From: Emydura subglobosa
Lineage: Eukaryota > Chordata > Testudines > Chelidae
Length of the DNA stretch: 64,000 nucleotides
Direction of reading: 5' to 3'
Assembly: GCA_007922225.1 (NCBI GenBank)
Contig: ML679989.1
Location: 16,495,974 to 16,559,973, forward strand
Shown here piece by piece: positions 1,404 to 64,000 of this stretch. The notes below the pieces were generated by a model that made no database searches, was not told the DNA's origin, and worked only from the letters and a program-made list of their open reading frames with translations. Every line of letters begins with the position of its first letter. Positions within the stretch are counted from its first letter, which is position 1. The translations under genes were made by a program, and so were the position numbers.

Positions 1404-1571
1404 GTACAACCCCCAAATCTGGCAATGCCCCGATCCTCAAGTGCCCCACCCAGTTTCCTCTCATCCTTTGGCACCCGTACTCCTGCCACTACTACTTCTG
1501 TGTGATGACCGGGAAGGAGCAGGACAAGTGGCGAGCGGTGTTCCAGGACTGCGTGCGACACTGCACCAATG
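1404..1571 (+). CDS. NIBAN2: NIBAN2 coding exon: end of PH domain
   Basis: The exon opens with the last two bases of a split Gly codon and reads TTPKSGNAPILKCPTQF, then LILWHPY and YYFCVMTGKEQDKWRAVFQD. The conserved Trp in DKWRAV is the usual C-terminal helix Trp of PH domains. Donor gtaagt at 1572. Confidence 0.95.
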
Positions 1572-19500: not shown

Positions 19501-20774
19501 ACAATTCTGCCCTCCCCTATTGCCCTCCTGTTGCAACGTGCTGTGCCAGCGTGGTCGTCCTGTCAGCTGCAAACCCCTCCGTGCGTCCTTCCACCCTGTC
19601 CCTTACGCCTCCCTTGTCTGCCATTGCCACCTTCTTCAAATTCCTTCTCAAGGACCTTCCCCGCTGGCTAAGACAGAAGTAAGAACTTAGCTGATCCAGG
19701 AGGGCTCGGCTGAGGCGTGGATGGAGACGTTTCATCCACTGTGGGGGTGTGAGAATTGTCCCAGGGTATCGATTTGAACAGTAACTGTCTCTCCCTACTA
19801 GTTCGTTGTATGTGGTTTGCTCTGAATCCTAGGAAGGCTGGCTGGGACCAGGGCTTGCTATGCGTTTGCACAATACCCAGCCTGGTGAGGCCTCGATCTC
19901 GAAGGAGGCCCCTGGGTGCTACTGACCCATAAGTAGATGTCTGTCCTGTCCTGACCTCTCTGTCTTTGCCATTCCAGCTGTGAAGGAGGCGGCAGTGCAG
20001 AGGAAGCATAACCTGTACCGGGACAGCATGGTCATGCACAACAGCGACCCCAACCTGCACCTGCTGGGAGAGGGCGCGCCCATCGACTGGGGCGAGGAGT
20101 ACGGCAGCCAGTCGGACTCGGACCCCTCCGCTGAGAAGCGCCGCCGAGCCAGGCAGGTGGTGTCGGTCATCCAGGACGACGAGGGGGCCCTGCCCTACGA
20201 GGCCGGGGCGGAAGGGGTGATGCGCCAGGCCTCCCAGGAAGACCCTGGGTCAGAGGAGCCGGAGGCCTGCCCTGCTGCCACGGCCCCGGGTTCTCCTGGC
20301 AGTGTGCAGGAGATACGGATGATGCTGGTGAAGGAGCTCCACGTGAAGACCCTGGTCCCGGCAGGAGAGGAGGCGAAGGAACAGCTGACGAACGGCACCA
20401 TCATCCAGCCGAGCGGCGGCTCTGAGGAGCATGTGGTGGAGGGGGCTGCCCAGAAGGCCGAGGAAGGCCCTGATCCCTTGGAACACTCCGCCCAGGGTGA
20501 CGCTGGCTTCCAGCGCCCACTGAACCCGGGGCTGGAGGAGCAGGAAGCCAAACCAGCCGCGCCCGCCTCTCCGGCCGAGCCGCTTCCCCTGGCAGCTGCC
20601 CTTCTGCTCGCTGAGGGGGCGACTGAGGCGACCCGCCAAGAACCCAATGACAAGGAGACGGGGGAAGAGGTGTCCACCCAGGCCTGTGCGGAGAAGGTGG
20701 AGCCTGCCCAGCCGGCCCCAGAGAACAGCGAGGGGACCACAGAGAACAGCGAGGGGGTGCAGACTCAGTTCTAA
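1404..20774 (+). CDS. NIBAN2: NIBAN2 (FAM129B), 5'-partial, ten coding exons
   Basis: Niban apoptosis regulator 2 is a cytosolic and membrane-associated protein with an N-terminal PH domain; the family is linked to cell survival and ERK signalling. Coding exons: 1404-1571, 8678-8793, 10141-10245, 12715-12877, 14849-15036, 15969-16124, 17344-17460, 17913-18020, 18532-18643, 19978-20774. All have AG/GT borders and phases that join without a break, giving about 675 codons. The first exon carries the end of the PH domain (DKWRAVFQDCVRHC). The middle is the helical Niban core (TDMDQIITSKEHLASKIR, VRNHVQPYIPSILEAL, FKEVTDMN). The acidic, low-complexity tail ends in GVQTQF, matching the family's GVQTEF-type end. 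The start codon and early exons lie upstream of the window. From memory the human protein is 746 residues and its last-exon tail is shorter. NIBAN1 and NIBAN3 fit the tail less well. Confidence 0.96.
5014..5130 (-). repeat. Short inverted-repeat element (MITE-like)
   Basis: About 117 bp. The left end is ggttgcca and the right end tggcaacc, an 8-bp inverted repeat. The inside reads, on the - strand, as a known-looking turtle repeat with 'cctggagactccagg' motifs and 'catgtgatgaaacctccagg'. Class is inferred; no autonomous partner is visible. Confidence 0.6.
5676..5800 (+). repeat. tRNA-derived SINE, 5' part
   Basis: Starts ggggccagtatggcctagcc, with a tRNA-like A-box region, then a degenerate B-box region (ctgggccctattccctgctc). 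This pattern is shared by other SINE copies in the window. Pol III origin is inferred. Confidence 0.6.
5862..5955 (-). repeat. tRNA-derived SINE, inverted copy
   Basis: On the - strand this contains a B-box-like motif (gatcgaatccc) preceded by sequence seen at the tRNA-like end of other SINE copies here. It is opposed to the fragment ending near 5800. Confidence 0.5.
8678..8793 (+). CDS. NIBAN2: NIBAN2 coding exon
   Basis: Completes a split Gly codon and reads IPEDSKVEAPAFTDAVRMYR, then QSKEQYGTWDMLCGSEVQ. It ends in phase 0 before donor gtgagg. These motifs are strongly conserved in NIBAN2 (human TDAIRMYRQSKELYGTWEML from memory). Confidence 0.95.
8794..10140 (+). other. NIBAN2 intron
   Basis: GC-rich intron of 1.35 kb. 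A loose tandem of 'gctcctcc' motifs spans about 9128-9230. No transposable element was recognised. Confidence 0.6.
10141..10245 (+). CDS. NIBAN2: NIBAN2 coding exon
   Basis: Thirty-five codons in phase 0: VLSNLVMEELVPELKN, then MISPRLKGKAQERQRLWIQ. Acceptor atccag, donor gtcagt. Part of the helical Niban core. Confidence 0.95.
11260..11375 (+). repeat. tRNA-type SINE fragment
   Basis: Contains the 'attaaggcattggagtagtac' type A-box region and 'gacctaggatcagttcctgc' B-box-like region. These recur in the SINEs at 25200, 44590 and 52345. Confidence 0.5.
11500..11998 (+). mobile_element. CR1 LINE, 3' end
   Basis: Degenerate CR1 terminal coding sequence and 3' UTR. One frame (11712-11990) reads FRLDIKKIFLAIRVVKLWNR, then LPRGVVESPSLVVFKTRLDR, the characteristic CR1 ORF2 C-terminus. 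It has internal stops upstream and is truncated at the 5' end, so it is a dead copy in the NIBAN2 intron, sense orientation. Confidence 0.88.
12715..12877 (+). CDS. NIBAN2: NIBAN2 coding exon
   Basis: Reads ISDAVYRLVYDQIKAHYEAV and ends IRTDMDQIITSKEHLASKIR plus one base of a split Ala codon. The DMDQIITSKEHLASKIR block is nearly invariant in NIBAN2. Donor gtagga. Confidence 0.95.
12898..13090 (+). repeat. Palindromic 'gtctacac' element fragment
   Basis: Begins gggtatgtctacatggc and ends near gaacgtcgacactcagc. The inside has partly self-complementary 'gagcctgagcc/cggctcg' sequence. It resembles a common turtle non-autonomous DNA-element family; the right end looks truncated. Confidence 0.55.
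13206..13520 (+). repeat. TIR element (gggtgacc ends)
   Basis: About 315 bp. Left end gggtgacc (13208-13215) and right end ggtcaccc (13511-13518) are exact inverted repeats. The inner ends also mirror each other (cccttatttctgtg near the left, ttcccttatttccctcc near the right). Non-autonomous DNA element is inferred. Confidence 0.6.
13655..14166 (+). mobile_element. CR1 LINE 3' end (long-UTR subfamily)
   Basis: Ends in the turtle-type CR1 terminus (aggtcagactagaggatt, then ttggtcccttctgacctta). It shares long near-identical blocks with the copy at 52550-53095, including 'gatcaccatatttgggg'. Sense to NIBAN2. Confidence 0.82.
14813..14836 (+). repeat. (TGTC)n microsatellite at an acceptor
   Basis: Five or so tandem tgtc units lie just upstream of the acceptor at 14847-14848 and make up most of the polypyrimidine tract of the next NIBAN2 exon. 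Confidence 0.85.
14849..15036 (+). CDS. NIBAN2: NIBAN2 coding exon
   Basis: Completes the split Ala codon and reads FVLPKAEICVRNHVQPYIPS, then ILEALMMPTSQGFAEVREVF and FKEVTDMNMNVINEGGMEKL. Ends GE before donor gtgagg. Highly conserved Niban core. Confidence 0.96.
15037..15968 (+). other. NIBAN2 intron
   Basis: Unique-looking sequence of 0.93 kb with no recognised repeat. The acceptor is cccttcag. Confidence 0.55.
15969..16124 (+). CDS. NIBAN2: NIBAN2 coding exon
   Basis: Fifty-two codons in phase 0: YMEKLSQLAFHPVKMQCCYE, then QMDQLKLEGLQQRFDVSSAS and VFKQRAQILMRQ. Donor gtaggg. Confidence 0.96.
16125..17343 (+). other. NIBAN2 intron
   Basis: 1.2 kb with no recognised mobile element. The acceptor is attgtag directly before the next exon. 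Confidence 0.55.
17344..17460 (+). CDS. NIBAN2: NIBAN2 coding exon
   Basis: Thirty-nine codons: QMDDAVHTFGTLLHQELAKM, then LGKEELCKSIQRILERVLK. Donor gtaagg. Confidence 0.96.
17620..17705 (-). repeat. tRNA-type SINE fragment
   Basis: On the - strand this has a tRNA-like layout (gcagtgtggtctacagga A-box region, then tcgacctgggttctacccc B-box region). It lies in the 450-bp intron 17461-17912. Confidence 0.55.
17913..18020 (+). CDS. NIBAN2: NIBAN2 coding exon
   Basis: Thirty-six codons: KYDYDSSTVRKKFFREALLQ, then ITIPFLLKKLAPTCKG. Donor gtaaga follows the Gly codon. Confidence 0.96.
18021..18531 (+). other. NIBAN2 intron
   Basis: 0.5 kb with no recognised repeat. Acceptor ctggcag at 18525-18531. 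Confidence 0.55.
18532..18643 (+). CDS. NIBAN2: NIBAN2 coding exon
   Basis: Reads ELPKFQELIFEDFDSFILVE, then NTYEEVVLQSVMKDIMQ plus one base of a split Ala codon. Donor gtgaga. Confidence 0.96.
19150..19680 (+). mobile_element. L2-like LINE reverse-transcriptase remnant
   Basis: A C-rich, stop-poor block in the last NIBAN2 intron (18644-19977). Read across frame shifts it resembles the C-terminal part of an L2/CR1-clade reverse transcriptase: 'AKIIFHAYPSDCIT', a 'YRIKFRLLVL'-like piece, 'ALHNSALPY'-like and finally 'FKFLLKDLP'. It is too broken to be coding. L2-clade assignment is inference. Confidence 0.45.
19978..20774 (+). CDS. NIBAN2: NIBAN2 last coding exon, acidic tail and stop
   Basis: Completes the split Ala codon, then VKEAAVQRKHNLYRDSMVMH and NSDPNLHLLGEGAPIDWGEE, both near-invariant in NIBAN2. 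A basic patch EKRRRARQVVSVIQDDEG follows, then roughly 200 residues rich in Glu, Pro, Ala and Ser, ending NSEGVQTQF and TAA at 20772-20774. The ENSEG unit occurs twice, 21 nt apart (20721 and 20742). The tail is the least conserved part of the family; in human it carries phosphorylated serines. Confidence 0.96.
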
Positions 20775-47885: not shown

Positions 47886-49052
47886 TGGTCTTATTGACAT
47901 CTTTTTCTTTTTGATGAGGAAAACCTAATACCTAGCTTCAGGGCCAGATTTAAGTGTAGGCGACCCAGGCAAACAGGCTTGGGGTACCGGGCTTGGAGTA
48001 CTGTTTTTGTTACTGACAAAAGGGAAAACAGAATGTTTGAAGTAAAATGTTTCAGGTACTCTGTATGTGGATTCATTTTCACTAACCTCCTAGTAACACT
48101 GTTTAACATTGGTCCACCTAATGTTGGTGCATTGTTCAATTTCTTTATGATGGTACATTTCAGTTCTTAATTAAAACATCTGTATAAGTTTAGAGGAAAC
48201 AATTTTTTGGACTTGCTTAGATATGGCATGATAAACTTGCATGTTAGGATCTGTAAATCTGTATTATCCCTGTCATATAAGATGAATAAAATCATGCATA
48301 CAGATAGTGCATCAAACTCATGAAATGGGCTATAACTGCAAGAAAAAAATAAGGGGTTCAAAAATTTAACAAATGGAGGGGGGTTAGTATAGGAGATGCT
48401 CCTCCCCTACGGCACTATTTGGTCTAGGGCCAGCCCCGACTATCTCATATAACCCTGTTCATCTGTCCATCTCACCCTGCTTTATAAAGGAGCGCACCAT
48501 CCCTGTCCCCATTTTACAGATGGGGAAACTGCCAAGCGATTACGCTGCAAGTCACAGGACGGCCGGGTAACCCGCCTGTCCCACCTTGGGCAGTGGCAGC
48601 TGGGTGAGTGGGTGGGTGAGATCTTAGGGGATGTAGCGCTTTCTCGGGGATTCCCCCCCCCATTAGCTTTTTTTTGCACGATCTCCTCTGGGGGCAGCGT
48701 GCATTGCACAGAGCTGCAGCAGTTTCCCGCCGAGGAGGGTGGGACGGGGCTCTGCAAGTGTCCACAGGCGGTGCGGAGCCTGTCGGTGCATGCAGGGCTC
48801 CAGGTGCTCTGGGAACCTCAGACTCCCTGTAAACCCCGCCCCCTCCCTGCGCCGCTCGGGCCCGGACTGTCGCTCAGGCTGGGCGGCGGCCGTGGCAGTC
48901 CGATTCCCAGCATCCCCTGCGGCGGGGAGTGCGTTCGCCGGTGGAACTGCATCTCCCAGCATGCCTCGCTGCGGGGGGGACGGGACCCGGATGTTGCGGT
49001 CCCTAGCGGGAGCGGGGCGTGCGTGAGCCGGGCTGCGTGTGGCGGGGGCACC

Positions 49053-49160
49053 ATGGGCGAGGGGCCGGGCCCGGCCGGGCTGGGGGCGGGGCGCGGCATG
49101 GCCGGGGTCGGGCGCGGGGTCCCGTGTAGCCGCCGCGGGGGGGCCGGCTCCTGCTCGTAG
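49053..49160 (+). CDS. Upstream ORF in the EDEM3-like leader (candidate)
   Basis: ATG at 49053 in a strong context (gcaccATGG) opens a 35-codon frame of MGEGPGPAGLG type that stops with TAG at 49158-49160, 7 bp before the main ATG. Whether it lies in the transcript depends on the unknown transcription start. Confidence 0.35.
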   Translation: MGEGPGPAGLGAGRGMAGVGRGVPCSRRGGAGSCS

Positions 49161-49167
49161 CCCGGCC

Positions 49168-49310
49168 ATGGGCGGGAGCGGGGGCGGCGCGAGGGGGGGC
49201 CCGGAGCGGCGGCGGGGGCGTCCCCCCTTGGGCGTGCTGCTGGCCCTGCTCTGGGCGCCCCTCGCCGCGGGGGCCGCGGCCCTGGGGGCGGCGGAGAAGA
49301 GTCGGCTCAG
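49168..49310 (+). CDS. EDEM3-like exon 1 (signal peptide)
   Basis: ATG at 49168 has G at -3 and +4. It encodes [20 protein letters not shown], then [20 protein letters not shown] and AAEKSRL with a split Arg. The upstream in-frame sequence has no ATG back to 49039, only a GTG. A basic stretch followed by a hydrophobic core is a normal signal peptide layout. Donor gtaagg. Confidence 0.88.
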
Positions 49311-52300
49311 GTAAGGGCAGCCCTGCTCCGTCCGTCGGTCGGTCGGTCCGTCCGTCCGTCTGTGGCCGGGACCCGCCCTGGGTGCGCGCGGGGCGCTCCC
49401 TTCCCGGTGCCCGCCCCTCCCCCCACCCTGCAAGGCTACCCGCCCCCCTGCGCCGGCCGGATCACGGGCCGTGCAATGCCCCAGCTGGTCTCCTGCCCCG
49501 CCCCCGCCCAGCCAAATCAGAGCAGGGCTGGAGTCCAGCCGCCTGCAGACAGACAGACAGACAGCCGTTCGGAGAAGCCAGGTCTGTCTGGACTGGCAAA
49601 GTCCGGTTGCCACCACCGCCCGCCAGTGAGATGGTGAAGATGGCTTGGGGGGGGAGGAGGTGCTGGTGTGTATGGTACAAGCTCCCAGGGTCAGACGGGT
49701 TACTTCATCGTCTGGTAGCGCCTGGAGGTGCCAGTCGGGGCTCCGGGTTCTCTTGTGCTAGGTGCTGTACATGTACGTGACGAAAGACCGGCCTTGACCC
49801 AAAGCGTGCCCAGCGGCAGTAGATGTGTGCCAACGCTGTGCACTTGAGGAACTCTTGACAGAACTTGAAAATACCTGCCTGATGATCCTCTAAGTGCAAC
49901 AGCAATTTAATGTAACCCAGCACCAGGAAACCAGAGAATTTAAAAACTCAAATCCCCCCTCCCCCTATTTCCAAATGCCTGCAAATAAAATATGAGCTTT
50001 GTAGGTCGCCACTCCTAAAAAATGTATTCGGCCCTGTGAAAAGATCTCTCTAGGGAACACTGGAACATCTTGTGCGTTGCCAGTAGTGTCTGCCCTGTTT
50101 AGACTTCCCTGTGGAGAGCTGGCACCGTCTCTGCTCTGTACACAATTTAACCTAACAACTATAGTTGAGAAAGAAGGGGATCAGTAATTCAGCACTGACT
50201 TAATAAAATGCTCTAGATACAAGTCATTGATCTCTGCCAGATAGTTGTTTCATCTGCTTTGAAATGGCAGTTACAAGATTCTTGATAAGGGGGACTGCAT
50301 AATGGCAGTATTTTGCTGCAGATTCTGTAAGCAGTTCTGAGTTTCCTGTTGTCTCTCTGCTGTTGCCTTTTCAGGGACCAGGTCGTGGAGATGTTTGACC
50401 ATGCATATGGCAGCTACATGGTAACTAGTATTTTTATATTTGTACTTGCTCACGTGTCCGTGAACTAAACTCTGAGTCTAATGTCTTGTCTGTTCTTCTA
50501 ATACTACTTCCCCAGCAGCCTCCTCTCCCACCACCACCTCAGGTAGCTCTACAGCTGCAGGAGAAAAAACACAGGAGTATTGGGGTGTGACCAAAAAACA
50601 CCCTTTACAATAGAAACATGGGCGAAGCAGTCCAGGTGCAGCAACCACTCACACCCCAGCTCCACTGAATTTACTTTCGTCATGGGGCTAGGCTGTGGCT
50701 TTTAACCACAGGCCCAAGCTGGGAGTGATATGGAGCTGCTCCGACGCCCGGGGTAGAGCTGGGAGGGGCTGGGTCTCTGCTAGGATGATATGGAGGAGTT
50801 GTGGAGGTCAAAGGCCCTTCCCTCCTTCTTTGGAGCGGTTTGTGCATGGAAGGACGGACCAGACCCTGTGTCCCATTCTTCTGACTCTTGGATGGGGTAT
50901 AGTGAAGGCTGGAAAGCTGCCTGTTTCCCTCAAACACCCTACAGTGGCCACACACTATCTAGTCTTTTCCTGTTTCCATTCTAAACTCAAGAGGATCACA
51001 CTTGGCAAAAGGAAGGCTGCCTTCTTCATGGGAAATTCCCATTTCTGTTCTTTAAATGAACACTAAGGATATATCTATGCAACAAATGCTTTAGCATTGT
51101 AGTGTAGACACTTGCTACAGCAATGGAATGGGTTTCTCTGTCGCTGTTGTAAATCTATCCTCCCAAGAGGCAGTAGCTAGGTTGATGGAAGAATTCTTCC
51201 ATTGACCAACCTAGCGGCATCTACACCAGGGCTTGAGTTGGCTTAACTATGTCTCTCATGGTGCAACTTTTTCACACCCCGGAGCGATGTAACTAGGCCG
51301 ACCTATGTTTTAGGTGTAGACCAGGTATAAGTCTCCCCCAAAGAAATTTCTGCATAGCAAAGGCCTTGGACAGCATTCAGGTGCTGGCCGGAATCCACCC
51401 AACTCTAGGAGACTTGCAAATGGAGCAAGGAAACCTTCCTCATCTTATTCCCTTGTGCTTAGAGTAGGCGTAGCTGATAGTAGGTGGCTGTCCCTCAGAA
51501 CAGAGGGTAACTCTTGCTCACTATGTGAGCTTCTATGGCTAGCAAAGCCTGGATGATTCTGGCCAGAATTCCAAATGTCCCCTCACCTAAATGACTTAGA
51601 ATTTGAGGTAGCCGTATGTAAAATGGGGCTAATCATAACTGAAGAGCCAAACACTGAAATCCATACACCTGGTTTTCATTTGCTCCTAACTTAAGCAAAA
51701 TCCAATTGATGTTGTTTTGCCTGAGGAGGAGCTCCAGGATTTTACTGAATGTTTGCAAAGCCCTCAAACATCCTTGGCTAAGTGCTTTAGATTGGCAAAG
51801 TATTAGCCCTCCTAGTGTAAGATCTAGATGAGTGCAGCACAGATCTAAGCAGCTGTTTGCATTGCTTCCTATGTCCTGGGTAGAGGTTGACAAGGCGTGT
51901 GTAACTAACAGCTTACCACGAGGCATTTCTGTGGCATGGGGAATGGCAAAAGGGGCCCCTTTTACTTCAAAAGCAGCCCATTTTACAGTCTTGATGTTGA
52001 GTCTTTGATGATTGTTTCCAAGTCCTCGATCTATCTCCAACAGTCAGAGATTGAACATTTTGTGCTGTTTCCTCTCCCCTGTACAGAAACATGCATATCC
52101 TGCAGACGAGCTAATGCCTTTGAGTTGTCGGGGCCGAGTGCGTGGGATGGAGCCGAGTCGTGGGGATATTGATGATGCCCTTGGCAAGTGAGTGTACAAG
52201 ATGGGTTCCTCCTCTTCCTCCATTCGCACGACAGGGTGTGGAGCACTTTTCTGGAACTACACGTGCTAAATAAACCTGTTAGCCACAAGCATCCTCTCGG

Positions 52301-55300
52301 TTCTTTGCTACTGTGAAGGATTTTTGTGGCTTTTCTGGTTATGTGTTACAGTGTAGCTTAGTGGTTAGGACAGTAGACTGGGAATAAGGTTCTGGGCTTC
52401 TATTCCCATCCGACACTTGGGCTCACTATGATGTGCCACCAAGAGCTAATCATGTCACACAATGTGCCTCAGTTTTCCCACACGTAAAATGATGATGATA
52501 CTCCACATGGGGACTTTGAAGCTGAATTAATTAATATTTGAGAAAAACGTTGAGGGAGGTTCTGGAACAGCCTTCCAAGGGGAGCAGTGCGGGCAAGAAA
52601 CCTAACTGGCTTCAAGACTGAGCTTCATAAGTTTATGGAAGGGATGGTATGATGGGACAGCCTAGTTTGGCAATTGACTGATCTTAGATTACTAGTGGTA
52701 CATATGCCCAATGGCCTGTGAAGGGATGTTAGATGAGGTAGGTTCTGAGTTACTACAGAGAATTCTTTCTGGGTGTCTGGCTGGTGAGTCCTGCCCATAT
52801 GCTCAGAGTTTAACTGATCACCATATTTGGGGTTGGGAAGGAATTTTCCCCAGGGCAGATTGGCAAAGGCTTTGGGAGTTTTTCACCTTCCTCTGTAGCC
52901 ATGGGGCATGGATCACTTGCTGGTGGATCTTCTGCCTTGAAGTCTTTAAATCATTATTTGAGGACTTCAATAACTGTGTCTTAGGTTAGGGATCTATTAC
53001 AGGAGTGGGTGAGTGAAGTTCTGTGACCTGTGTTGTGCAGGAGGTCAGACTACATGATCATACTGGTCCCTTCTGACCTTATAGTCTGAGTCTGACCACT
53101 TGTGGAAGGATCTTTGTGACAGAAAAGTGGATGTGCTATTTATAATTTCAGTCTCAGTAATTAAAGTGCATTTTTCCCCTCATGACCAAGAAGGTACAGA
53201 ATGAAAGCTGGTCAGGAAATGGTTTTTGTTCTTGCAAAATACTTCGAGGAATTTTTTTCTGCAAAATACTTTTTATCAAAAAAACAATAACCAAAATAAT
53301 AAAAAGATTTTCAGCAATCAGAAATGTTTCAGGTTTGACTGAAACTTTTGGTTTTTCAGTGGCAACCTGAAAAAAATTGTTGAAAACAGATACTGCAGAA
53401 ATTTGTTTTTGAGTGGGGGCGGGTCGGGTCAGATTTTCATAATTCTCCGGGGATGGTTATTTATACAGCTATTTTGCAAGTGTAAAGATCGCTTTTTCCC
53501 TTGTAGTTGCATGCACAGATGGCTGGTTATACATCCATTTGTGTATACAGTTAGAGCAATTGCATGAATAATGGCACAGATTGTAGAAGTGCTTTTTTGC
53601 AAGTGCCAAGTTCAGAAAATCTGCCCCTTGGTGTGTTTTGGACTAACCATGTGGTCCAGTTCGCTTTCCAAGAACTAGTTTTCATCTTAATTTAAAAGGT
53701 AACAATTTCTTTGCATTTAAATCTTTAGGTTTTCCCTCACTCTTATTGACACTTTGGATACGCTTGTGGTAAGTCAGCAATCTACTTTTCAGACCAGTTT
53801 ATTTGTGGGTTTGCAGGTTTAGATCTGTTGAGCTGGATTTTAGTGGTGTCTGCATTTACAGGCAGTGGTATCTGTCAACAACATGATTGAGTTCCTGGCA
53901 CAGAGGGGATTCCCTTTCGTTGGTTTGTATTGCACTATATGTTTCTCTCTGCTGTTCTTTGCTTCTTTTCAAGTGAGCGAAGAGTTGGTATTAAAGCTGT
54001 AAGGCTTCCCTCATGTTCTTGATGGACAAGCTCAGAGTTAAAGTATAGTTGAAGTATACCTAGGAGCAGGAGTTTCTTGGGGCATCTTCAGGGGTGGTTG
54101 GAGTGGGGGGAACTTATGGGCTTGTTTTAAATAGGACACGGGAGAAAGTCAAGTGCCAAGTGTTCAGTGCACAAAACGGATTTGGCCCATGGAAGTTCAT
54201 GCAAACTTGATTTTTCTCTCTACTCCCAGCCCACACATCCTGCCTCCACTTCAGGCATAGCTCAGCTGGGTGTTAAATAAACCCAGCAACTGCAGGTGAA
54301 ATTCAGCTGAACGCACTCCCAAGCTTTGCTTGGCTTTCTTCTCAGACCAGATCTTGGCTCATGCTTGCCAAAAGGCTATAGAACTTAGGGCCAGACTGCC
54401 CCCAAACGTCAGGATTGTAATGAAACCCAGAACCACAGGATCAGCAAACCTTCATGCAGGTCTGTGCAGATCTCCTGGGTTCTCTTCCCTCTTTTGTGAC
54501 TGACTGATTCTCTAACCTTGGGCAAGTCACTTGACCCTAGCTTCCGCAACTGTACATTGGGGATAACAGTAGTGTTACATGCACTATTAGTGTGATTGTT
54601 TTTGTTTGTCAGTGGGATAAAAGCAGGCAGTCTGTATGTTTGAAAGCAATGCAGTTAAAAGCATGGAACCTCTCAGTTTAGCATGAGTACTTCTTGCTTA
54701 TAAAAGAATATGATCAAAATAAAAAATGACCGTGCTGGACATGTGTTATGCTCTTTGAGGCCAGGACTGTCTCTTACTATGTTCAGTATTAGCACAATGG
54801 GGCCCTGATCTCAACTGAGGCTTCTAGGTGCTACAGCTAATAACCCTTTCCCCACATAATTTGCTAGTTTCTCTTGTCTTTTCCTTCTCTGTTAATGCAT
54901 CTTCTTCTTAGCATTCTTTGCCCCAGTGACAAACAAAAATTAATGCATTTTTCCCATGTTCAGTTAATTTTTTCTCCCTGAGCCCCTCTGGGGCCTCAGT
55001 TCTATACTGACTGATGCATTAGAGAGAAATTCAGGGCATGTTTTCCGTTCTCTTCGTCTGTCTGTCTTCAGCTTCTTTTTTCCCTTCACTATGTCCTGTT
55101 TGTTTCCTTATCCTGTCATTGGTTCTATGATCCTGGGTTTATTTACCTGCCTTAAACAAATAATAAAAGGAATAGATTTTTTGTATTGCTGTAGGTCCTA
55201 GTCGCCTCAGTCATGGACCAGGACCCCTTTGTGCTAGGTGTTGTACAAACACAGAACAGAAACGTGGTCCCTGCCCCCAAAGAGCTTGTAATCCTCCATT

Positions 55301-58300
55301 CTTGGCCATGCTTTTTCAGGGCATGCAATGTCCCCCCGACTCTGCTTGTCCCCTCCCTTCCCCATACACCCACTGCTATTGCCAGCCCATATCATTAAAA
55401 AATCATGAGTTAGGTCCCGTGAAATCATGAGATTTTAAAAGAAAACAATTATAAAATGTGGGTTCTTATTCTTTGCCTTCTGGGTTTTAAACCTGTCGTG
55501 TGCACTCAGGCCATGATTTGAAGCCCTTCTCCATGTGCGCTAGAAACTTTTTTTAAAATAAAACTGAGATTCTGATATTATCACATGAATCTATGATCTG
55601 AAATGTAACCCGCTCCCCCCCCCCAAAAAAAACCCAAAGCCCCCAGCAAATATTGGGGGGGTGGGACAGTAAAATCATGAGCTTGCAACCTGGGGACCAC
55701 TCATGCTCTTGTGTGGGCCCTGCTCCTGCTAGCATTGGAGATAGTGACCCAGAAAGCATATCTAAAAGGGAGGATTGCCTACTGGTTAGGGTGCTAGCTC
55801 CCTGAAAACAAGGCCTGAAACAAGGTGTCTAAGCAGGTGATGCCCCTCAGGAATGTGATCAGTTAGCGAATTGCTCTTGTGACTATCCTTTATCTAGTGC
55901 CCAGCAGTGTGCTACGGGCTGTACACACCTCACAAGACCAGCTCCCGCACCAAAGACCTTGCAGTCTGTATAGACAACACACGGCCCCAGGAGCAGGGAG
56001 TAGCTCTCGTTGGATTGTTGTTTGAGGGACTGAGGGGGCTTTGGCGGCGGCGGAGGGGGACAGACTCAGGGCAGCTATGCCTGGCATAGTGGGTGATCCA
56101 ACACTCTTGTGGGAGAAAGGAATGAGGGGACATCGAGAGAGGGGGCACAGGCATGCAGGGTCTGGAGAGGGGAGCGGTGGGTAGCCGGACAGGAGCTGTG
56201 GGCAGGGCCCTGCAAACCCGGCGAGGCAGAGGCATTTGAAGGGAGCTATGAAGCCAGTGAAGTGCCGTCAAGCGGGCCCCATGTCGCTGACCTGAATCTC
56301 TTCTCTCCCATGGGTCTCACCGCCCAGGTCCTTAACAAGCTGGACGAGTTCGAGGATGCTGTGCGGAAAGTGGTCCTGGATGTGCGGCTGGACAATGACG
56401 TGGTGGTCTCTGTCTTCGAAACCAACATTCGTGTGCTGGGGTGAGCCCCCGATGGTAGCAAGAGCCACAGCCCATAGGCGTTGGACGGGTGGTGGCGGAC
56501 AGGTCCCCTCTTGCTCAGTCCTTTAGAGCACTGACCCAGTGCTACGGCCCCTTCAGCTCAGCACATGCTGCCCACCCAGTGGGACTGGGCTCTGTCAGAT
56601 GTTCTGCAGGGCTGCGGGGGGGGAGGGGGAGGAGGGCGGGCGGGTGGGGGAAGGCTGCTTGCTGTGTGTGAAATGCATTGGATTCATTGGGGGTGGAGAG
56701 CAAGGACGTCACCCCAGGCTGTGGGCCCATTGCTCACCAATGGGCCTTGGCGGGTGGGTACAGAGGGGCCCATCTGGCCTAGCGTCTCCTCATCCCAGCA
56801 GGGGAAGTGAGCACCAAGCTCCTGAAATGGGCTGTCTGGGATCTCGACTTGCAGGGTCCTCTGGGCAGCCTGACCCGCTCTGCGCTGTCCCCCTTTCTGT
56901 CATGCAGGGGCCTGCTAGGGGGTCACATCATGGCTGACATGTTGAAGGCACAAGGCATGCGGCTGCAGTGGTACAAGGACGAGCTCCTGCATCTGGCCCG
57001 GGATTTAGGGTACCGTCTCTTGCCCGCTTTCAACACCACCAGTGGGCTGCCGTACCCCAGGGTAAGGGAGTGGCAGATCTGAGCCGGGACAGGGGAGGCT
57101 TTGTGTGAGCTGGCATGGACTGACCCAGCAGAGCCCCAGTAAGGCCTGCAGAGTCTGAAGAGACATGTCCAGAGCCCAAGGGGCTGCGTGCTTTCCTAGA
57201 GCCTCAGGCTGAGTGCCACCGGCCATGGCAACTTCCCTGAGCCGCTATCCAGGAGGACGCTGGGGGTGGGGCTGACCCTTCTCACCAGCCCCACAGTCCT
57301 AGTGCTTCTGAGTGACTGAAAGGGGTTCAGGCTCTCTAGAGATGGCTCCACATTGCCTTGGCTGTTGCTTCAGGTCTGAGGCACCCAGGTTCCTTGCAGC
57401 CATAGAAACCCCATGTGGCTTATGGTGAGGGGGAGGGGCACTTCCAGATGACTGTTTATAAACCAAAATCCTTCCTGTCCCATGTGGATGATAAAGGTTT
57501 CCTGATCCTCTTGGCAGTAGGATAGGCGTGTCCCAATTCCTTGGCCAGAAAACTCCTTTCCTTGCTGTGGTGGAACGTGCTGCATGTCAGCTGTTTGCTA
57601 CCCTCCACCCCAAAGGAGGCTGCATTTTGGCAGGTGCTTTATAAAATGCTGTGGGACAGAGAGTGCTGAATGGAAGTAAAATAACCTCATTGCTGTTGGC
57701 AGCCCAGCACAATTTGAGTTGCTTGACCACTGTCCTACAGGCCTAGCATAGTGTCAGTTGCTTGCTTGGCTTTTCTGACTCCTGTAGCATGACATCTTCC
57801 AGTTGGCAGAGACTGAATAACACTATAGATGTCTCAGTTTCTGCAAAGCACGGCACATAATAAGACAAAATACAGATACTCTATGGCTTGCAGCTGCACA
57901 TTGATAACCGTGATGGGAACAAGTTATCCTTGAACGTCTGGAGTACACTGTTTTATTGCCAAGAGGCATACTTTTACTCCGCCCCTCCTATCACCAGATG
58001 TTGTTTTGACGACCACAATTATTATGGTGAGAATGGAATGTAGTTAAGAGTGGAAACCCAATGTAGGTAATTAGCATATATGATAATGAGAGAGATAATT
58101 AGGTGAAGGTTGTTTATGGAAGGGTATAAGTAGTCACCACTTAGACAAAGGAGCAGGCGCTCCATCAACACCTAACTCCGCGGGAGGTGCTGCCAGTTGG
58201 ACCAGAGGATCCACTGACTCCCTGGCGGGGCCCCTGAAGAAAGCCATTCCTGTATACAGCCTTCTGAGGGACTGCTTAGCTCTCCAGGCTTAGTGAGTGT

Positions 58301-61300
58301 GAGATATTGTAGTTAATTTTAGGCTTTGTATCTTACAAGTATATTTATAGAACACCTTGCACATTAAACCTTATTGATCTGCAAATCGGGGGTACTGTCT
58401 CAGTGGTATCCACACTAATCACGAAGTGTCCAGAATCAACAATTGCTGCATGTGAAAAGTCTGAGGGGAAAACACGCAGTAAAACTCAGGCAGCGTCTGT
58501 CCATCCAGGTGAACCTGAGGTATGGGGTCCTGAGTCCGAACTCCCGGACAGGCACAGAGCTGGACACCTGCACGGCGTGCGCTGGCACCATGATTTTGGA
58601 GTTTGCTGCCCTCAGTCGCCTGACACAAGAGACTGTTTTCGAAGTAAGTGGTTGGGAGGCTCGGGGTGGGGAGGGGGAAGCAAAGTCTGGTTGCTGTTTC
58701 TCGCCTGAGGCGATCCTGTGTGCAGACCTGGTGGAGCCCCTGAGGTAACTAGCCCAGAATGTGATGAGCCCTTTATTTTGCAGTGCTTCTTCATGGACTG
58801 CACTGGTTCACTTGAACCTGCACAGAGCGTGGGCAAAGCCCCTCAATGCCAGGGGCCAGACACTGTCTCTGTCAAACCCTCTGGCTGCTGCTTATCCATC
58901 TGTCCATGGATTGTGCTTGAGTCACCTCGCTGTCAGCCGTCCTCTATTTCATACGGCCACTGGAAGCCCGAAGGCCCCATGCCCTCTGCATTCAGCATAA
59001 CAGAGATCTAGTGCAGCCTGTGCCATCTGCAGGATCCCAGCTCCCCTCATCTACAGGCTAAATGGGGTGGTGGAGGGCGGTCAGGTGAGCAATCCCTCAA
59101 CACCCCCACCCTGCTGGAATCTGAGGAGCGACTGGAAACAGGGTTTCCACCCTGCCCAGTGCTGGTTGGTACCGCAGGCAGCTGGGAGACGTAAAGCATC
59201 CAGCCCAGCATGGACTCAGGGTTTCACAAACAGGACGTTGCTTTGGTTAAACGGTAAGAACGTGGGCGGGGGGGGGTAAAGAAGAATCTGGGCGTGAAGG
59301 GGGAAATGATTCTATTTTATGTCTCTGCTTTTCACTGGAGCCTCGAACCCAGGGCTGGATTTCTCGTCACAGCATCCCATGTGCTTGGGAAGGGTTATCA
59401 CCCCCATTTTACAGATGGGGAAACTGAGACACAGTGATTTGCCCAAGGTGTCAAGCCCCACAATTAGTGGCAGAGCCCAAAACCTCCTCAGTCCTTTTGG
59501 AGGGCCCAGTTCCTAGTGCGATCCGCTCTCTCTGCAGGGTGGTTCTATTTAATGAGCATAAGGAATGCAGTAGAAACAACGCCTGTGCGGTGTTGGGCAA
59601 AGAGGGTGACGTGTAATCTGTGTGTTCTGTAACTTAATTCCTTTCTCTGTCCGTCCACTCATCTCCATTCTCAGGACACAGCTCGGAGAGCGCTGGATGT
59701 TCTCTGGGAGAAGCGCCAGAAAGGGAACAACCTGGTGGGGACAGTCATCAACATTCACAATGGGGACTGGGTCCGGCGGGGTAAGTGAATCAGTGGTGTA
59801 CCGAGGGGGGGGGCATGCCCTGGGCACTGGCCTAGAGGGGGCGCCGGCTGGGCCCACCTCAGAGGAGCTACCCCCCGCTGACTTCCCTGGTGACCACGCC
59901 ACCCAGCCCCTCCACCCCTATGCTGGGCGGAAGGAGGGAGCCACGGGGATCTCGGCCACACAGGGACCAGACAACCAAAGGCAGGTTTCCGAGGCAGAGC
60001 CCGTCACGCCTCTTTCTCTCCCCCTGCTGCCAGGCGCCCCTCATCCTTACATTTGCGTCCCCACCAGGTCAGCAGCAGCGATGGCAGCACCCCGGGGGGG
60101 GTGAGGTCTGCAGGCCCATTTCCCACTCCCCACCGCCCCCAGAGCCAGGGGGTGCTGTTGCCGACAGGGCAGGGCTCAAATGTAAGTATGGGTCCCGGGC
60201 GCCGGAGACCCACAGTACACCACTGAAGTGAATCTAGGGGCCTGAAGGACACCAGCATGGCACGGCTGCCTGGGGGCAGAGGTGTGCCGGCTGGCATCGC
60301 AGTCACTCGTGCGCTTGGAGCAGCGGCAGGGCTCGAGTCCTGCTGGAGTGCTTCGGAACGGCCTTCCACCACCTTTTTTGGGTGGTGAGGAGCCAGAACA
60401 ATGATCTGGCATTTACGGAGCTATTGCTTATGATTGGGAGGCAGGGGCCACGGGCTGGGTGGTTTATACTGGTCTCCACCCCCTTGGGGTCCCAAAGCAG
60501 TGTCGTCCCCCCTGTCACCCTGGAGCTCCCTGCTGTGGCGCTGTCCCAGCTGGCTCTGGTAGCATACCAAAAGGAGGTGCCGCTCTCTCTGCCCCGCCCT
60601 GGGAAGGGGAAGAGCGCTCTGCCTGCTGCCAGGGCATGGCTGGAGATCTGCCTTGCTGATGGCTTCACCAGCACCACTGGGGAGCCTACAAGGGTGTCAG
60701 TGCTGTGGCACCCTTGGGGCGGTACCAAGGCGCATGGGGCAAGGCAGGCTGCAGCACGGAACCTCCTGCCAACATCCTCCTCTTCTGGGATGCCTGCACC
60801 ATTCTGGGTAAGGCCCCCACGCGTCACTGCCTGCTCCATCCATTGTGATTTTCCTAGACAGCGGGGTCGGAGCCGGGATAGACTCATACTATGAGTACCT
60901 GATGAAGGCGTATATCCTTCTGGGGGACGACACCTACCTGGAGAGATTCAATGCTGTGAGTACACAGGGTAACACACTCTCTCCTTTTCTGTCGCTCTCT
61001 GGTGGGAATGGGGGTAATTAAACCATTCCTCCCTCACCCCCTCTTCCAGCTGAGAATCCATTTTGAAGCTGCGAGGCCAGCTTGACCTGCAATGCAAGAC
61101 CCGCTGCCGGGCAGCCTGTCTGCATCCATTTCCTTTCACGGGGCCGGCTGCTGCTACAGTGTGCTTTGGAGGGCTCCGTGACTCTGATGGCTTCCACTTA
61201 GCAGCAATCGAGAGGCAAAGTTGAGCAAATGACTACATGCCGGGTATGCAGCGGGGTCAGGAGCTGGCTGGCCGGCCACCCCAGCACTCCCTCCTTCATC

Positions 61301-63491
61301 TGCTCTTGTGTAGGAACTTGCAGCTAGTGCTGGGGGGAAGCGCATCGCTCTGTACTCACAAATACACCATGGCTTGCTTTCTTTCCAGCAAGTGCCATTT
61401 GGAGCCCTGTAGCATTGAACGCAGAGCTTGCCCTCAGTTACGAGAGATGATGGGGAAGCTTGCGCAGCATTCGGAACCTCTTTCCAATTAGCGTAGGTGA
61501 TGCAAGCAAACTCTCTTCTCTTCTGCTTGCTCCTAAGGACTTGATCCATGCTCGGCTGTTGACCATGAGGTGGTTTTTTTTTTTTTGTTTTTTTTTTTAG
61601 AACTGAGCTTGAACCAGCCCTGCTCAGCCGTTTTACTTGTGTGAGCATGGAAGAGAGATGCCCACAGTGTCCCTTGACTGACATTCTTGGGCATGTGTCA
61701 CATTGATGAGACTGTAGGTGCAACCTTAGCTTTACTCGTCCCTGATTTCCAAGGACTCAGCTGGGGAGTCTTCATGTTGAATGGACAATTGCAAGCTCTT
61801 GCTAACCCTCCATTTCCCTGCTCTGCCCTGCCGTCTTACTGGATTTATAGAGCGCTTTTCCCTACCGTTTAGTTAATAGAGTTTGTCTGTCTGTCTCTCC
61901 AGCATTACGTGGCCATAATGAAATACATCAGCCAGCCTCCGCTCCTGCTCAACGTCCATATGCACAACCCTACAGTCAGCATCCGGAGCTGGATGGATTC
62001 CCTCCTGGCCTTTTTCCCCGGCCTCCAGGTACAGAGGCCATGGGCAGAATGGACTTGTTGATACCGTGTGGCTCTGCCAAATGAACACTAACTGTTGGTT
62101 TTAGTGGGGCTCTGCTCAGATGCAGCCTGTGCCATCTCTTATTTGCCGGGCACAGCAAAGGGGCAGGACTGTGAAAGGTGGGTTAATATAAAAAGAGAGG
62201 GCGAGCTGTGGGAATGGAGATGGGCTTTGTCCTTTAGCAGGGTAGGTGTCTTCATCCAATTGGACTGGCCAAAATGTACTAACTATTCTGCTCTTCAACA
62301 CTTGTATGTCCTTTAGCTGACGTCTCATGAGCTAGTGTTCTGTGCTTAGGTACATATCTGGACCCTGTTACCCTAGCATGAGAACACCTCAGTCTTTAAT
62401 GTGTCTAGCCTCCCACAGGGCAGTGCTACAATCCTCATCGTACACATGGAAAGCTAAGGCAGAGAGAGGATAAGTGACTTGCCTAGGATTACCAAGAAGT
62501 CAGTGGCAGAGCGGGGATTTGAACCCGGGTCTCCCGGGCGGGAGGCTTGTGCCCTAACCACTTTTCCTTCCCTCTGAACCTTTGTGTTCCTGCAAAAGCT
62601 GGTTCTGGGGCTAGGTTTGGGGCTCTTGGAAATATACGCTACAAGCCATCTCGTGAGGTGAAATGTTTCCAAGTGTCCATCTGTAAACTGCTCTGTCCCA
62701 GGCAGATCCAGTCATCCTGGCTCAGCTGTGGCCCAAAGGTACGACCCAAGGTGAATCAAGAAATGTGTTCAGGAGGAAATAGGCTATGAACAGAGTAGGG
62801 GCGGTGATTGAAGCTAAAATACCCTCCTTCCTTCCCCATGGTTTTGGCTGAGAGGCAGCTGCAGGTGTATTATGGCTAACGTGGGAGAGCTATAACCTTT
62901 ATGTGAAATGAGTTGGTGCGGGCTCCACCCAACTTCTGTGGCTGCACATCACAAAAGCCACCATTCATATAGTTAGCACTAATTATCTTGCCCCGCCCCT
63001 CCTTTGGCCTCACTGCTGCCTCACAGAGGTCAACAAAGACTGAATGGGATTAGACTGGAATCCTCTCTCTCACCCGCACACCCCCCAGAGAAGGGGTGAG
63101 TCCTGTCGGTGAGCTAATGGGAGGGCAGCTTGACCTTGCCCTGGCTGTGTCTGCCCTGTGGATACAGTGCCAGGCAGCTGGCATCGTTCACTAGCACTAA
63201 ATTCACTAGCTAATGTGTGCTGCTGCTGAAATGAGCTGCTGTTAAAAAATCGCCCCCTAACGAGGATCCCACTTTCCCCACCTTGCTGTGACCCAGGCTG
63301 TCACTGTTAAGAGCCGGAAGCGTTTTTAATGCCTCACAATTGCCCCAAAGTTGTTTTTTTACCCTGATGTGCCCCAGGGAAACAAAGGGTTTTGTGTCTG
63401 TCCCCAGGTGCTGAGGGGGGATTTGAAGCCTGCCATCGAGACGCATGAGATGCTGTACCAGGTCACCAAGCAACACAAATTCCTCCCGGAG
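49168..63491 (+). CDS. EDEM3-like GH47 alpha-mannosidase, 3'-partial
   Basis: EDEM proteins are ER GH47 alpha-1,2-mannosidases that trim misfolded glycoproteins for ER-associated degradation. Coding exons: 49168-49310, 50375-50420, 52087-52187, 53729-53768, 56328-56440, 56908-57061, 58509-58643, 59675-59780, 60858-60955, 61903-62028, 63408-63491. All junctions are GT-AG and in phase, giving 382 codons. A signal peptide ([20 protein letters not shown]) is followed by the catalytic domain. [17 protein letters not shown] holds the acid Glu and [17 protein letters not shown] the catalytic Asp region; [13 protein letters not shown] carries an N-glycosylation site. It matches EDEM3 ([11 protein letters not shown], RGDxDDALGKFSLTLID), not EDEM1 or EDEM2, yet differs at many sites. 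The rest of the GH47 domain and any PA domain lie beyond the window. Best read as an EDEM3 paralog. Confidence 0.9.
50375..50420 (+). CDS. EDEM3-like exon 2
   Basis: Fifteen codons after the split Arg: [15 protein letters not shown]. Acceptor ttttcag, donor gtaact. Matches the EDEM3 N-terminal helix of the GH47 barrel. Confidence 0.93.
50421..52086 (+). other. EDEM3-like intron 2
   Basis: 1.67 kb; the only recognised repeat is the MITE-like copy at 51065-51330. Confidence 0.6.
51065..51330 (+). repeat. 'gtgtagac' MITE-like element copy
   Basis: Shares 'agtagctaggttgatggaag' and 'cggcatctacaccagggctt' type sequence with the copy at 40840-41100, and ends 'ttttaggtgtagaccaggta'. The left end is worn. 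Confidence 0.65.
52087..52187 (+). CDS. EDEM3-like exon 3
   Basis: [20 protein letters not shown], then [13 protein letters not shown] with a split Lys. The RGRVRGxEPSRGDxDDALGK segment is specific to EDEM3 among EDEMs. Donor gtgagt. Confidence 0.95.
52345..52510 (+). repeat. tRNA-type SINE
   Basis: Head 'cagtgtagcttagtggttag' with an A-box-like motif, 'ttctgggcttctattcccat' as the B-box region, then 'gtgcctcagttttcccacac' and 'gtaaaatgatgatgatactc'. Confidence 0.7.
52550..53095 (+). mobile_element. CR1 LINE 3' end (long-UTR subfamily)
   Basis: Sister copy of 13655-14166: shared 'tgatgggacagcctag', 'gtgtctggctggtgagtc', 'gatcaccatatttgggg' and the terminal 'actggtcccttctgacctta'. Sense to the host gene. 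Confidence 0.82.
53729..53768 (+). CDS. EDEM3-like exon 4
   Basis: Completes the split Lys, then [13 protein letters not shown] in phase 0. Acceptor tctttag, donor gtaagt. This is the conserved SLTLIDxLDTL motif of EDEM/GH47. Confidence 0.95.
53769..56327 (+). other. EDEM3-like intron 4
   Basis: 2.56 kb with a SINE part (about 54485-54600) and three 'gtgctaggtgctgtac' repeat copies (54735-54845, 55190-55300, 55890-55990). The remainder is unrecognised. Confidence 0.65.
55190..55300 (+). repeat. Dispersed 'gtgctaggtgctgtac' repeat
   Basis: Reads 'cagtcatggaccaggacccc', 'tttgtgctaggtgttgtaca' and 'ctgcccccaaagagcttgta'. Same family as 29145-29265. Confidence 0.7.
56328..56440 (+). CDS. EDEM3-like exon 5 (catalytic acid Glu)
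   Basis: [20 protein letters not shown], then [18 protein letters not shown], ending two bases into a Gly codon. The Glu of SVFETNIR is the position whose mutation inactivates mammalian EDEM3, as I recall. Donor gtgagc. Confidence 0.96.
56908..57061 (+). CDS. EDEM3-like exon 6
   Basis: [20 protein letters not shown], then [20 protein letters not shown] and [11 protein letters not shown]. Contains an N-x-T sequon. Acceptor atgcag, donor gtaagg. Confidence 0.95.
57062..58508 (+). other. EDEM3-like intron 6
   Basis: Contains the LTR-like block at about 57820-58440, which ends close to the acceptor of the next exon. Nothing else recognised. Confidence 0.55.
57820..58440 (+). mobile_element. Possible solo LTR
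   Basis: A TATA-like ggtataagtag (58123-58133) is followed about 230 bp later by attaaa (58363-58368) and a G/T-rich stretch. This is the U3-R-U5 order of an LTR. No target duplication or clear TG...CA borders were found, and no internal retroviral genes are present. Confidence 0.4.
58509..58643 (+). CDS. EDEM3-like exon 7
   Basis: [20 protein letters not shown], then [20 protein letters not shown] and ETVFE, 45 codons in phase 0. [17 protein letters not shown] is a strong EDEM3 block. Confidence 0.96.
59385..59485 (-). repeat. SINE fragment, inverted
   Basis: 'ccccattttacagatgggga' followed by 'actgagacacagtgatttgc', the reverse of the SINE tail. In intron 7 (58644-59674), otherwise unremarkable. 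Confidence 0.6.
59675..59780 (+). CDS. EDEM3-like exon 8
   Basis: [20 protein letters not shown], then [15 protein letters not shown] and one base of a split Asp. Donor gtaagt at 59781; the donor is partly inside a hAT target duplication (see next entry). Confidence 0.95.
59791..60225 (+). mobile_element. hAT-type element abutting a splice donor
   Basis: 435 bp with perfect 11-bp inverted ends, cagtggtgtac and gtacaccactg. Flanked by an exact 8-bp target duplication aagtgaat (59783-59790 and 60226-60233). The left duplication starts at intron position +3, so the exon 8 donor gtaagt includes four of its bases. No transposase; a non-autonomous copy. Confidence 0.92.
60234..60857 (+). other. 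Remainder of EDEM3-like intron 8
   Basis: GC-rich and stop-poor in one + frame (60382-60894), but that frame has no known domain. It begins at a GTG, and its end runs into exon 9 out of frame. Confidence 0.55.
60858..60955 (+). CDS. EDEM3-like exon 9 (catalytic Asp region)
   Basis: Completes Asp, then [20 protein letters not shown] and [23 protein letters not shown] is the GH47 motif holding the catalytic Asp. Acceptor tcctag, donor gtgagt. Confidence 0.96.
60956..61902 (+). other. EDEM3-like intron 9
   Basis: 0.95 kb with a T-rich run at about 61572-61600. A short tgtctgtctgtctc run forms the acceptor tract, like that at 14813. No mobile element recognised. Confidence 0.6.
61903..62028 (+). 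CDS. EDEM3-like exon 10
   Basis: [20 protein letters not shown], then [20 protein letters not shown] and LQ, 42 codons in phase 0. [15 protein letters not shown] and [13 protein letters not shown] are EDEM3 blocks. Donor gtacag. Confidence 0.96.
62425..62575 (-). repeat. tRNA-type SINE, inverted
   Basis: 'gagcggggatttgaacccgg' is a near-perfect reversed B-box region, followed by 'gtgccctaaccacttttcct', the reversed A-box side. In intron 10 (62029-63407), which shows no other recognised repeat. Confidence 0.75.
63408..63491 (+). CDS. EDEM3-like exon 11, last in window
   Basis: [20 protein letters not shown], then KQHKFLPE, 28 codons in phase 0; the gene continues beyond the window. Acceptor ccccag, donor gtgagt. 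From 63492 to 64000 only intron sequence is seen. Confidence 0.95.
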
Positions 63492-64000
63492 GTGAGTGTG
63501 CAAGCTGCTTCTCTGTCCGTTGTGCTGTGATCCCACTGGTCTCTGGGCTTGGCCTTCATTCTGCCTGGGCTCGGTCCCCTAGCAGCTGTGATGGGAAAAA
63601 ATCCGTCCCTTGCTCATTGCAGGGAAAGTTCTTCAGCCTCCCATGTCCTGACCCCATGTATCAGGCACAGCATCCTTCCTGAGACCCTGTCATTGCAATG
63701 CTGACCATCCCCTGCGTTCTCTTTCTAGCTTGCATGAATAGGATTGGGGCTTGATCTGATGCCTATTGAAGTCAGTAGATCCATGGGTTTTTTGATATGG
63801 GGAAAGGGACCCAAGGGTTTGCACCTTTAATCCTGTGTGATCTTCATAACTATGCTATAACTGCTTCCCTTTCTCAGTAGGACTCTAGCATTCTCCTCCC
63901 AGCCCCCAGGGCTGAAATGCCTCGTGCCTCCTTAGCACCCAAAGCAAAATGCCCTATGGCCTTTCACTCTCTTCTTCCATGCTTTGCACCTCACTGTCTC

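Follow-up and report, generated by a model that had tools for sequence, protein, structure and literature searches.

A probable EDEM3 ohnolog beside NIBAN2 in the turtle Emydura subglobosa

The accessible part of PMC7835635, on ERAD in mammalian and chicken cells, lists three EDEMs and numbers the catalytic residues E147 and D294. The Cys82-Cys441 pair of EDEM3 is needed for activity (PMC8570694, accessible sections). Fish edem3 serves solely as a neighbour of pou5f3 in the available portion of PMC5297860, where it adjoins npdc1-pou5f3-fut7a; two of these neighbours, Npdc1 and Fut7a, map to human chromosome 9. In tilapia, EDEM3 lies within an RGL1-GLT25D2-C1orf21-EDEM3 block (PMC3276181, part of Table 4). 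A literature search of partial coverage on edem3 paralogs, fish duplicates and synteny returned no description of a second gene. The neighbours in the tilapia block are presumably human 1q25 genes, and we take human EDEM3 to be located at 1q25 in the order NIBAN1-EDEM3.

The window analysed here, a stretch of 64,000 nucleotides from E. subglobosa, was initially annotated as carrying eleven exons for the first 382 codons of an EDEM3-type GH47 protein, a count that was reproduced with GT-AG sites (Table 1; 382 open codons, 1146 bases, no stop). Twelve stop-free combinations of neighbouring acceptor and donor sites were found, and the set chosen was the sole one matching EDEM3 throughout. Upstream of the start codon at 49168, an in-frame stop is present at 49024, with no in-frame ATG between them; CpG observed/expected ratios of the flanking 500-base windows were 0.18 (48001-48500), 0.65 (48501-49000), 0.48 (49501-50000) and 0.31 (50001-50500). 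Because residues 54-382 share 100% identity over 329 residues with a predicted Emydura protein, the eleven-exon sequence is, on this match, a real EDEM3-type gene. Comparison of the Malaclemys protein tail with the window gave a single match (E 0.87), and an Rfam scan of the window returned nothing at or above gathering score.

Table 1. Positions of the EDEM3-type exons (49168-63491) and neighbouring features in the window
Feature	Position	Strand	Evidence or content
NIBAN2 coding segments	1403..20771	+	about residue 141 to C-terminus (human numbering); tblastn, human NIBAN2 query
CpG-rich promoter/first-exon region	48801..49600		GC 0.767, CpG obs/exp 0.78
Exon 1	49168..49310	+	start codon; signal-peptide-like hydrophobic stretch, about residues 19-38
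Exon 2	50375..50420	+	splice-site listing, open-frame translation
Exon 3	52087..52187	+	Cys aligned with human C82
Exon 4	53729..53768	+	splice-site listing, open-frame translation
Exon 5	56328..56440	+	VFETNIR motif, catalytic Glu (literature numbering E147)
Exon 6	56908..57061	+	splice-site listing, open-frame translation
Exon 7	58509..58643	+	splice-site listing, open-frame translation
Exon 8	59675..59780	+	splice-site listing, open-frame translation
Exon 9	60858..60955	+	motif of 11 protein letters, catalytic Asp (literature numbering D294)
Exon 10	61903..62028	+	splice-site listing, open-frame translation
Exon 11	63408..63491	+	last codon = 382; remainder of gene past window

The encoded protein matches GH47 over residues 54-381 with an E value of 2.4e-78 and 264.6 bits against a curated cut-off of 22.9, far from chance. 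Both the catalytic Glu and the catalytic Asp are present in the part of the gene inside the window. Among rows of the second copy with a residue at the position, the Glu is conserved in 175/175 and the Asp in 176/176, as are the first Cys (175/175) and the second (175/177); the Cys82 equivalent is in the window, and the Cys441 equivalent, seen in relatives, lies past it here. A further catalytic Glu, the third of GH47, and its Ca-binding Thr also lie past the window; relatives, P0002 among them, carry the motifs RPEFAES and FTTEAH. A PA domain follows GH47 in all four relatives scanned (P0002, P0009, P0031 and P0274), in a region past the window in this gene. The Emydura protein, modelled with AlphaFold from 30 rows, reached a mean pLDDT of 52.2, and this poor model was given no weight.

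The gene lies about 28 kb downstream of NIBAN2 on the shared strand, which bears out the placement originally proposed. With tblastn, ten segments were matched by human NIBAN2, nine at 60.9-89.5% and the last at 41.7%; a human NIBAN1 query that extended to about residue 590 only matched nine segments at 30.4-68.4%, with the lower score in each. LRSAM1 gave just two matches in the window (E 0.25 and 0.49).

Relatives at 85-100% GH47 identity were found in turtles, crocodilians, tuatara, salamanders, lungfish and ray-finned fishes; most database rows of the second copy listed are named only 'EDEM3', 'alpha-1,2-mannosidase' or hypothetical. Identity was tabulated over 329 GH47 columns for 31 hand-chosen rows of 299 fetched, with the window protein as reference: 13 ray-finned fish gave 85.1-88.4%, lungfish 86.0%, two salamanders 90.0-91.2%, and seven mammalian EDEM3 sequences 77.5-78.7%. 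Among the 120 best matches to the C-terminal part of the second copy, none bears the name of a bird, squamate, frog or mammal. Retention of the gene, initially annotated as a second mannosidase copy kept in this lineage, is not particular to it, being shared with the groups in which the 85-100% relatives were found. Mammals appear to have lost the NIBAN2-linked EDEM3 copy.

Taken together, the gene very probably represents a second EDEM3-type locus in bony vertebrates, sister to canonical EDEM3. Its most likely origin is a copying of the NIBAN-EDEM3 pair as part of the genome duplications early in vertebrate history; we refer to it provisionally as 'EDEM3-like, NIBAN2-linked'. Alternatively, it could be plain EDEM3 in its reptile form, orthologous to the mammalian gene, which would have moved and evolved fast on the mammalian stem; both genes are indeed called EDEM3 in databases. 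However, change since the split from tick was equal (Malaclemys to Phoca, 29:29), and as mammalian EDEM3 sequences hardly differ from one another (98.8-99.7% identity to Phoca), orthology would require a sudden earlier burst. When gar, lungfish, salamander or eel served as outgroup, the turtle:mammal changes were 16:51, 13:56, 9:61 and 18:56, respectively, a mammal-heavy excess expected if those species carry the turtle's copy. Site patterns grouped reptiles with fish at 11 sites, reptiles with mammals at 3 and fish with mammals at 2 (the fish-based pattern by itself, p 0.057), and the pattern with salamanders was 19 vs 1. The neighbour being NIBAN2, not NIBAN1, likewise speaks against orthology, as does the placement of fish edem3 in two different blocks in the available parts of PMC3276181 and PMC5297860.

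A tree rooted with human EDEM1 and EDEM2 had end branches of 8.49 and 10 and no resolution at its base, and hence tick EDEM3 was used as root. In the tick-rooted trees, which comprise a single tick sequence and only mammals for canonical EDEM3, the mammals were placed outside all other vertebrate rows with support of 80/98 (whole length, where tails align poorly) and 92/96 (GH47). The GH47-only trees are better in this respect, yet the latter included one Crocodylus row whose tail was badly cut, and without that row the mammals moved inside, to a position sister to lungfish and tetrapods (bootstrap 38, SH-aLRT 83). AU tests (p 0.159-0.273) also leave orthology standing, as a tetrapod clade including mammalian EDEM3 was retained at p 0.273, 0.192 and 0.159, and an amniote clade including it at p 0.188. 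A split of the two copies before that of fish and tetrapods is thus favoured by identities, relative rates and site patterns, but neither by the AU tests nor by the tree without the Crocodylus row. With identities, relative rates, site patterns and fish synteny (PMC3276181 and PMC5297860, as available) weighed against these tests, the ohnolog assignment of the initial annotation stands insofar as a paralog is likelier than an ortholog, and we regard orthology as very unlikely.

A further alternative is that the gene is a real paralog from a duplication other than 1R/2R, such as the copying of one gene or one segment before bony vertebrates radiated. The date is bounded on one side only, by the fish-tetrapod split, because the matches listed comprised neither shark nor lamprey nor lancelet sequences. 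Against such an origin, the NIBAN partner is duplicated in the same arrangement (the NIBAN2 order as observed here, the NIBAN1-EDEM3 order as in human), and human 1q and 9q form one 2R paralogon. This origin is judged highly improbable, and the early vertebrate genome duplications are probably the source of the pair.

The initial annotation had also read the many substitutions relative to EDEM3 as a sign of a possibly altered role. This was not borne out since both copies are equally far from tick EDEM3 (69.1% and 67.9% identity). The two copies do differ at the C-terminus: among predicted models, isoforms and near-duplicates included, a KDEL-like end was found in 0/178 vertebrate models of the second copy, and 112/120 mammalian EDEM3 rows end in DEL; the end of the Emydura gene itself is past the window. 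The nearest to KDEL in the second copy were TDQL (Emydura P0009) and NVEL (salmon row P0024). As it departs from mammalian EDEM3 in this feature, the gene is not classed as canonical EDEM3. The tick EDEM3 row is likewise without KDEL, and hence loss and gain of this end are indistinguishable.

The second copy encodes a predicted signal peptide and a GH47 alpha-1,2-mannosidase domain; in relatives, an intermediate region follows, then a PA domain and a KDEL-less tail. From these sequence features we infer mannosidase activity and an ER location. Like EDEM3, the protein would enter the ER, its GH47 domain set by a disulfide of the Cys82-Cys441 type, and trim alpha-1,2-mannose from the N-glycans of misfolded glycoproteins, thereby exposing the alpha-1,6-mannose signal for ERAD. 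Lacking KDEL, it may depend on another means of ER retention, as EDEM1 and EDEM2 must, or part of its action may take place outside the ER. A tentative and rather doubtful extension is that it constitutes a fourth EDEM in many non-mammalian bony vertebrates, perhaps absent also from birds, squamates and frogs, whose KDEL-less trimming takes place in part outside the ER, or from a pool that a partner retains. If so, a step of glycoprotein quality control was lost in mammals, and studies of fish 'edem3' may conflate it with canonical EDEM3.

Among known systems, canonical mammalian EDEM3 shares with the second copy the GH47 and PA domains, the catalytic Glu and Asp, the Cys pair, and further Cys residues at aligned positions 225, 228, 528, 693 and 714. 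It differs in its GH47 identity (about 78%), in its neighbour (NIBAN1 there, NIBAN2 here), in 56 positions fixed differently (at least 95% in each group) and in the C-terminal end described above; at human Cys557, the second copy mostly has a gap, with L, P and Q the commonest residues (17, 2 and 2 rows). To our knowledge, EDEM1 and EDEM2 are without a PA domain. Like the second copy, these two are ERAD GH47 mannosidases without a KDEL end (PMC7835635, accessible part), but they are very distant from it, as judged by the length of their end branches. The fish 'edem3' beside npdc1-pou5f3-fut7a (PMC5297860, available portion) is probably the same gene, as judged from its neighbours on the human chromosome 9 side. 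Work on fish or turtle 'EDEM3' may concern the other gene. As a fourth, well conserved GH47 and PA copy in fishes, salamanders, turtles and crocodilians, it would form with canonical EDEM3 a natural comparison for the roles of the KDEL end and the tail.

The initial annotation described eleven exons and 382 open codons downstream of NIBAN2, and this structure was rebuilt from the window sequence with 0 stops; the EDEM3-type gene is real. Splice sites were enumerated around the eleven exons, and among the 12 stop-free combinations of neighbouring sites the one with an EDEM3 match throughout was chosen. The start codon lies inside a CpG-rich stretch, is preceded by an in-frame stop with no in-frame ATG between the two, and is followed by a hydrophobic, signal-peptide-like run; Pfam GH47 covers residues 54-381 (E 2.4e-78). 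The remaining exons are past base 64000, since the tail of a turtle relative gives just one match in the window (E 0.87). Residues 54-382 are 100% identical to P0009, a predicted Emydura macquarii protein. The P0009 model begins at the residue matching internal Met 54 and lacks the signal peptide encoded by exons 1-2, so that, judged by sequence, some turtle database models may be 5' truncated. Two intron sequences resemble CR1 elements; an Rfam scan of the window returned 0 families at gathering score.

Coordinates of features in the window
Feature	Positions	Strand	Remark
NIBAN2 exons	1403-20771	+	same strand as EDEM3-type gene
Repeat in NIBAN2 intron	11731-11884		reading frame like 3' end of presumed CR1-type reverse transcriptase (RLDIKKIFLAIRVVKLWNRLPRGVV)
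In-frame stop	49024	+	upstream of start codon
EDEM3-type gene, exons 1-11	49168-63491	+	first 382 codons
Exons 1-2	49168-50420	+	signal peptide
Repeat in intron	52540-53090		ends like presumed CR1 3' tail (cccttctgaccttatagtctga)
Repeat	62430-62570		tRNA-derived-SINE-like, by eye

The upstream neighbour is NIBAN2: as queries, human NIBAN2 outscored human NIBAN1, the latter used as far as about residue 590, in 9/9 segments matched by both. Between the two genes (20.8-49.1 kb), visual inspection of two listings filtered by splice sites revealed no recognisable exon, and an LRSAM1 query gave no match in the window better than E 0.25. Human 1q and 9q are paralogous, and RGL1, GLT25D2, C1orf21 and NPL are presumably 1q25 genes. 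The published fish order edem3-npdc1-pou5f3-fut7a-clica involves Npdc1 and Fut7a, which lie on human chromosome 9 (flounder; PMC5297860), and scaffold 101 of tilapia LG23 carries, in order, RGL1, GLT25D2, a novel protein, C1orf21, EDEM3 and NPL (PMC3276181). Combined, these gene orders indicate that fishes have two EDEM3 loci, lying on opposite sides of the 1q/9q paralogy, a pattern unremarked in the available portions of both papers.

The gene is most likely a true paralog of EDEM3 and is widely distributed; the initial annotation had placed it as a probable ohnolog. The window was compared with 31 proteins chosen from 299 retrieved, and identity to it over its GH47 columns was 97.9-100% for four turtles, 98.2-98.5% for two crocodilians, 94.2% for tuatara, 90.0-91.2% for two salamanders, 86.0% for lungfish, 85.1-88.4% for 13 ray-finned fishes and 77.5-78.7% for seven mammalian EDEM3s, the canonical type being represented in all comparisons by mammals. 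Relative-rate counts (Malaclemys turtle copy:Phoca EDEM3) were 29:29 with tick as outgroup, and 16:51, 13:56, 9:61 and 18:56 with gar, lungfish, salamander and eel, respectively. Tick-polarised sites united reptiles with fishes 11 times, reptiles with mammals 3 times and fishes with mammals twice (11 vs 3, p 0.057); with salamanders replacing fishes, the count was 19 vs 1. Mammals fell outside in a tick-rooted tree (support 80/98) and in a second of window GH47 columns that included a badly cut Crocodylus row (92/96), though a tetrapod or amniote clade with the mammals inside was not rejected by AU tests (p 0.159-0.273). The latter values would accommodate orthology, with the gene and mammalian EDEM3 in one such clade, as would the best tree without the Crocodylus row, where mammals were sister to lungfish plus tetrapods (bootstrap 38, SH-aLRT 83), and the open base of a tree rooted with EDEM1 and EDEM2. 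Paralogy is preferred on the identity pattern, relative rates and site patterns.

Retention of this paralog is not special to this lineage, which the initial annotation described as having kept the copy that mammals lost. The best 120 of 2107 matches in a first protein search comprised turtles, crocodilians, tuatara, two salamanders, many ray-finned fishes, one tick and unnamed rows, and a query with the C-terminal portion of the Malaclemys protein contributed, within the best 120 of its 416 matches, lungfish, sturgeons, paddlefish, bowfin, reedfish and zebrafish. Named birds, squamates, frogs and mammals numbered 0 among the latter. Because tuatara and salamanders there outrank almost every fish, any copy in birds or squamates should rank high as well, and its absence from both groups is likely, if not proven, given one name per cluster, some nameless rows, a list of the best 120, fragments outside the length window and bird assemblies that often lack GC-rich genes. 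The matches listed include no shark, which says little. For canonical EDEM3, another protein search listed only mammals among the named rows of its best 120. One fish row of this gene, P0120 (Sarotherodon), is named receptor-type tyrosine-protein phosphatase U at source and is evidently a misnamed or fused model.

The enzyme domain is not evidently altered, contrary to the suggestion that many substitutions may reflect a changed role: tick EDEM3 is equally distant from both types (window 69.1%, Phoca 67.9%; GH47 columns). Mammalian EDEM3, described as comprising GH47, IMD, PA and disordered modules with a KDEL end (PMC7926307), acts on M8B towards glycans with exposed alpha-1,6-mannose (PMC8570694). 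The catalytic and cysteine positions taken from PMC7835635 and PMC8570694 are conserved where located within the window and, among rows of this copy with a residue there, in 175/175 (Glu), 176/176 (Asp), 175/175 (first Cys) and 175/177 (second Cys). At the 95% level, 56 aligned positions are fixed differently between canonical EDEM3 (120 mammalian rows) and this copy (178 rows); the tick residue, where present, agrees now with one and now with the other, so neither copy is plainly derived. In P0001, an Ixodes EDEM3 isoform, a large part of GH47 stands in tandem repeat with almost no letter changed; the duplication may be genuine or an artefact of the gene model.

Interest lies in a probable fourth EDEM, unremarked as such, in bony vertebrates, and in its KDEL-less tail. 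The nearest ends to KDEL in this copy are TDQL (P0009) and NVEL (P0024, one salmon row). The C-terminal rows are predicted models, isoforms and near-duplicates included and some truncated, and tick EDEM3 also lacks KDEL; hence the difference fits either a loss from this copy or a gain by canonical EDEM3. EDEM1 and EDEM2 are likewise described as without KDEL (PMC7835635), so its lack here is no proof that the enzyme leaves the ER. Whereas 112 of 120 mammalian rows of canonical EDEM3 end in DEL, none of this copy's 178 vertebrate rows matches a KDEL-like pattern at the C-terminus.
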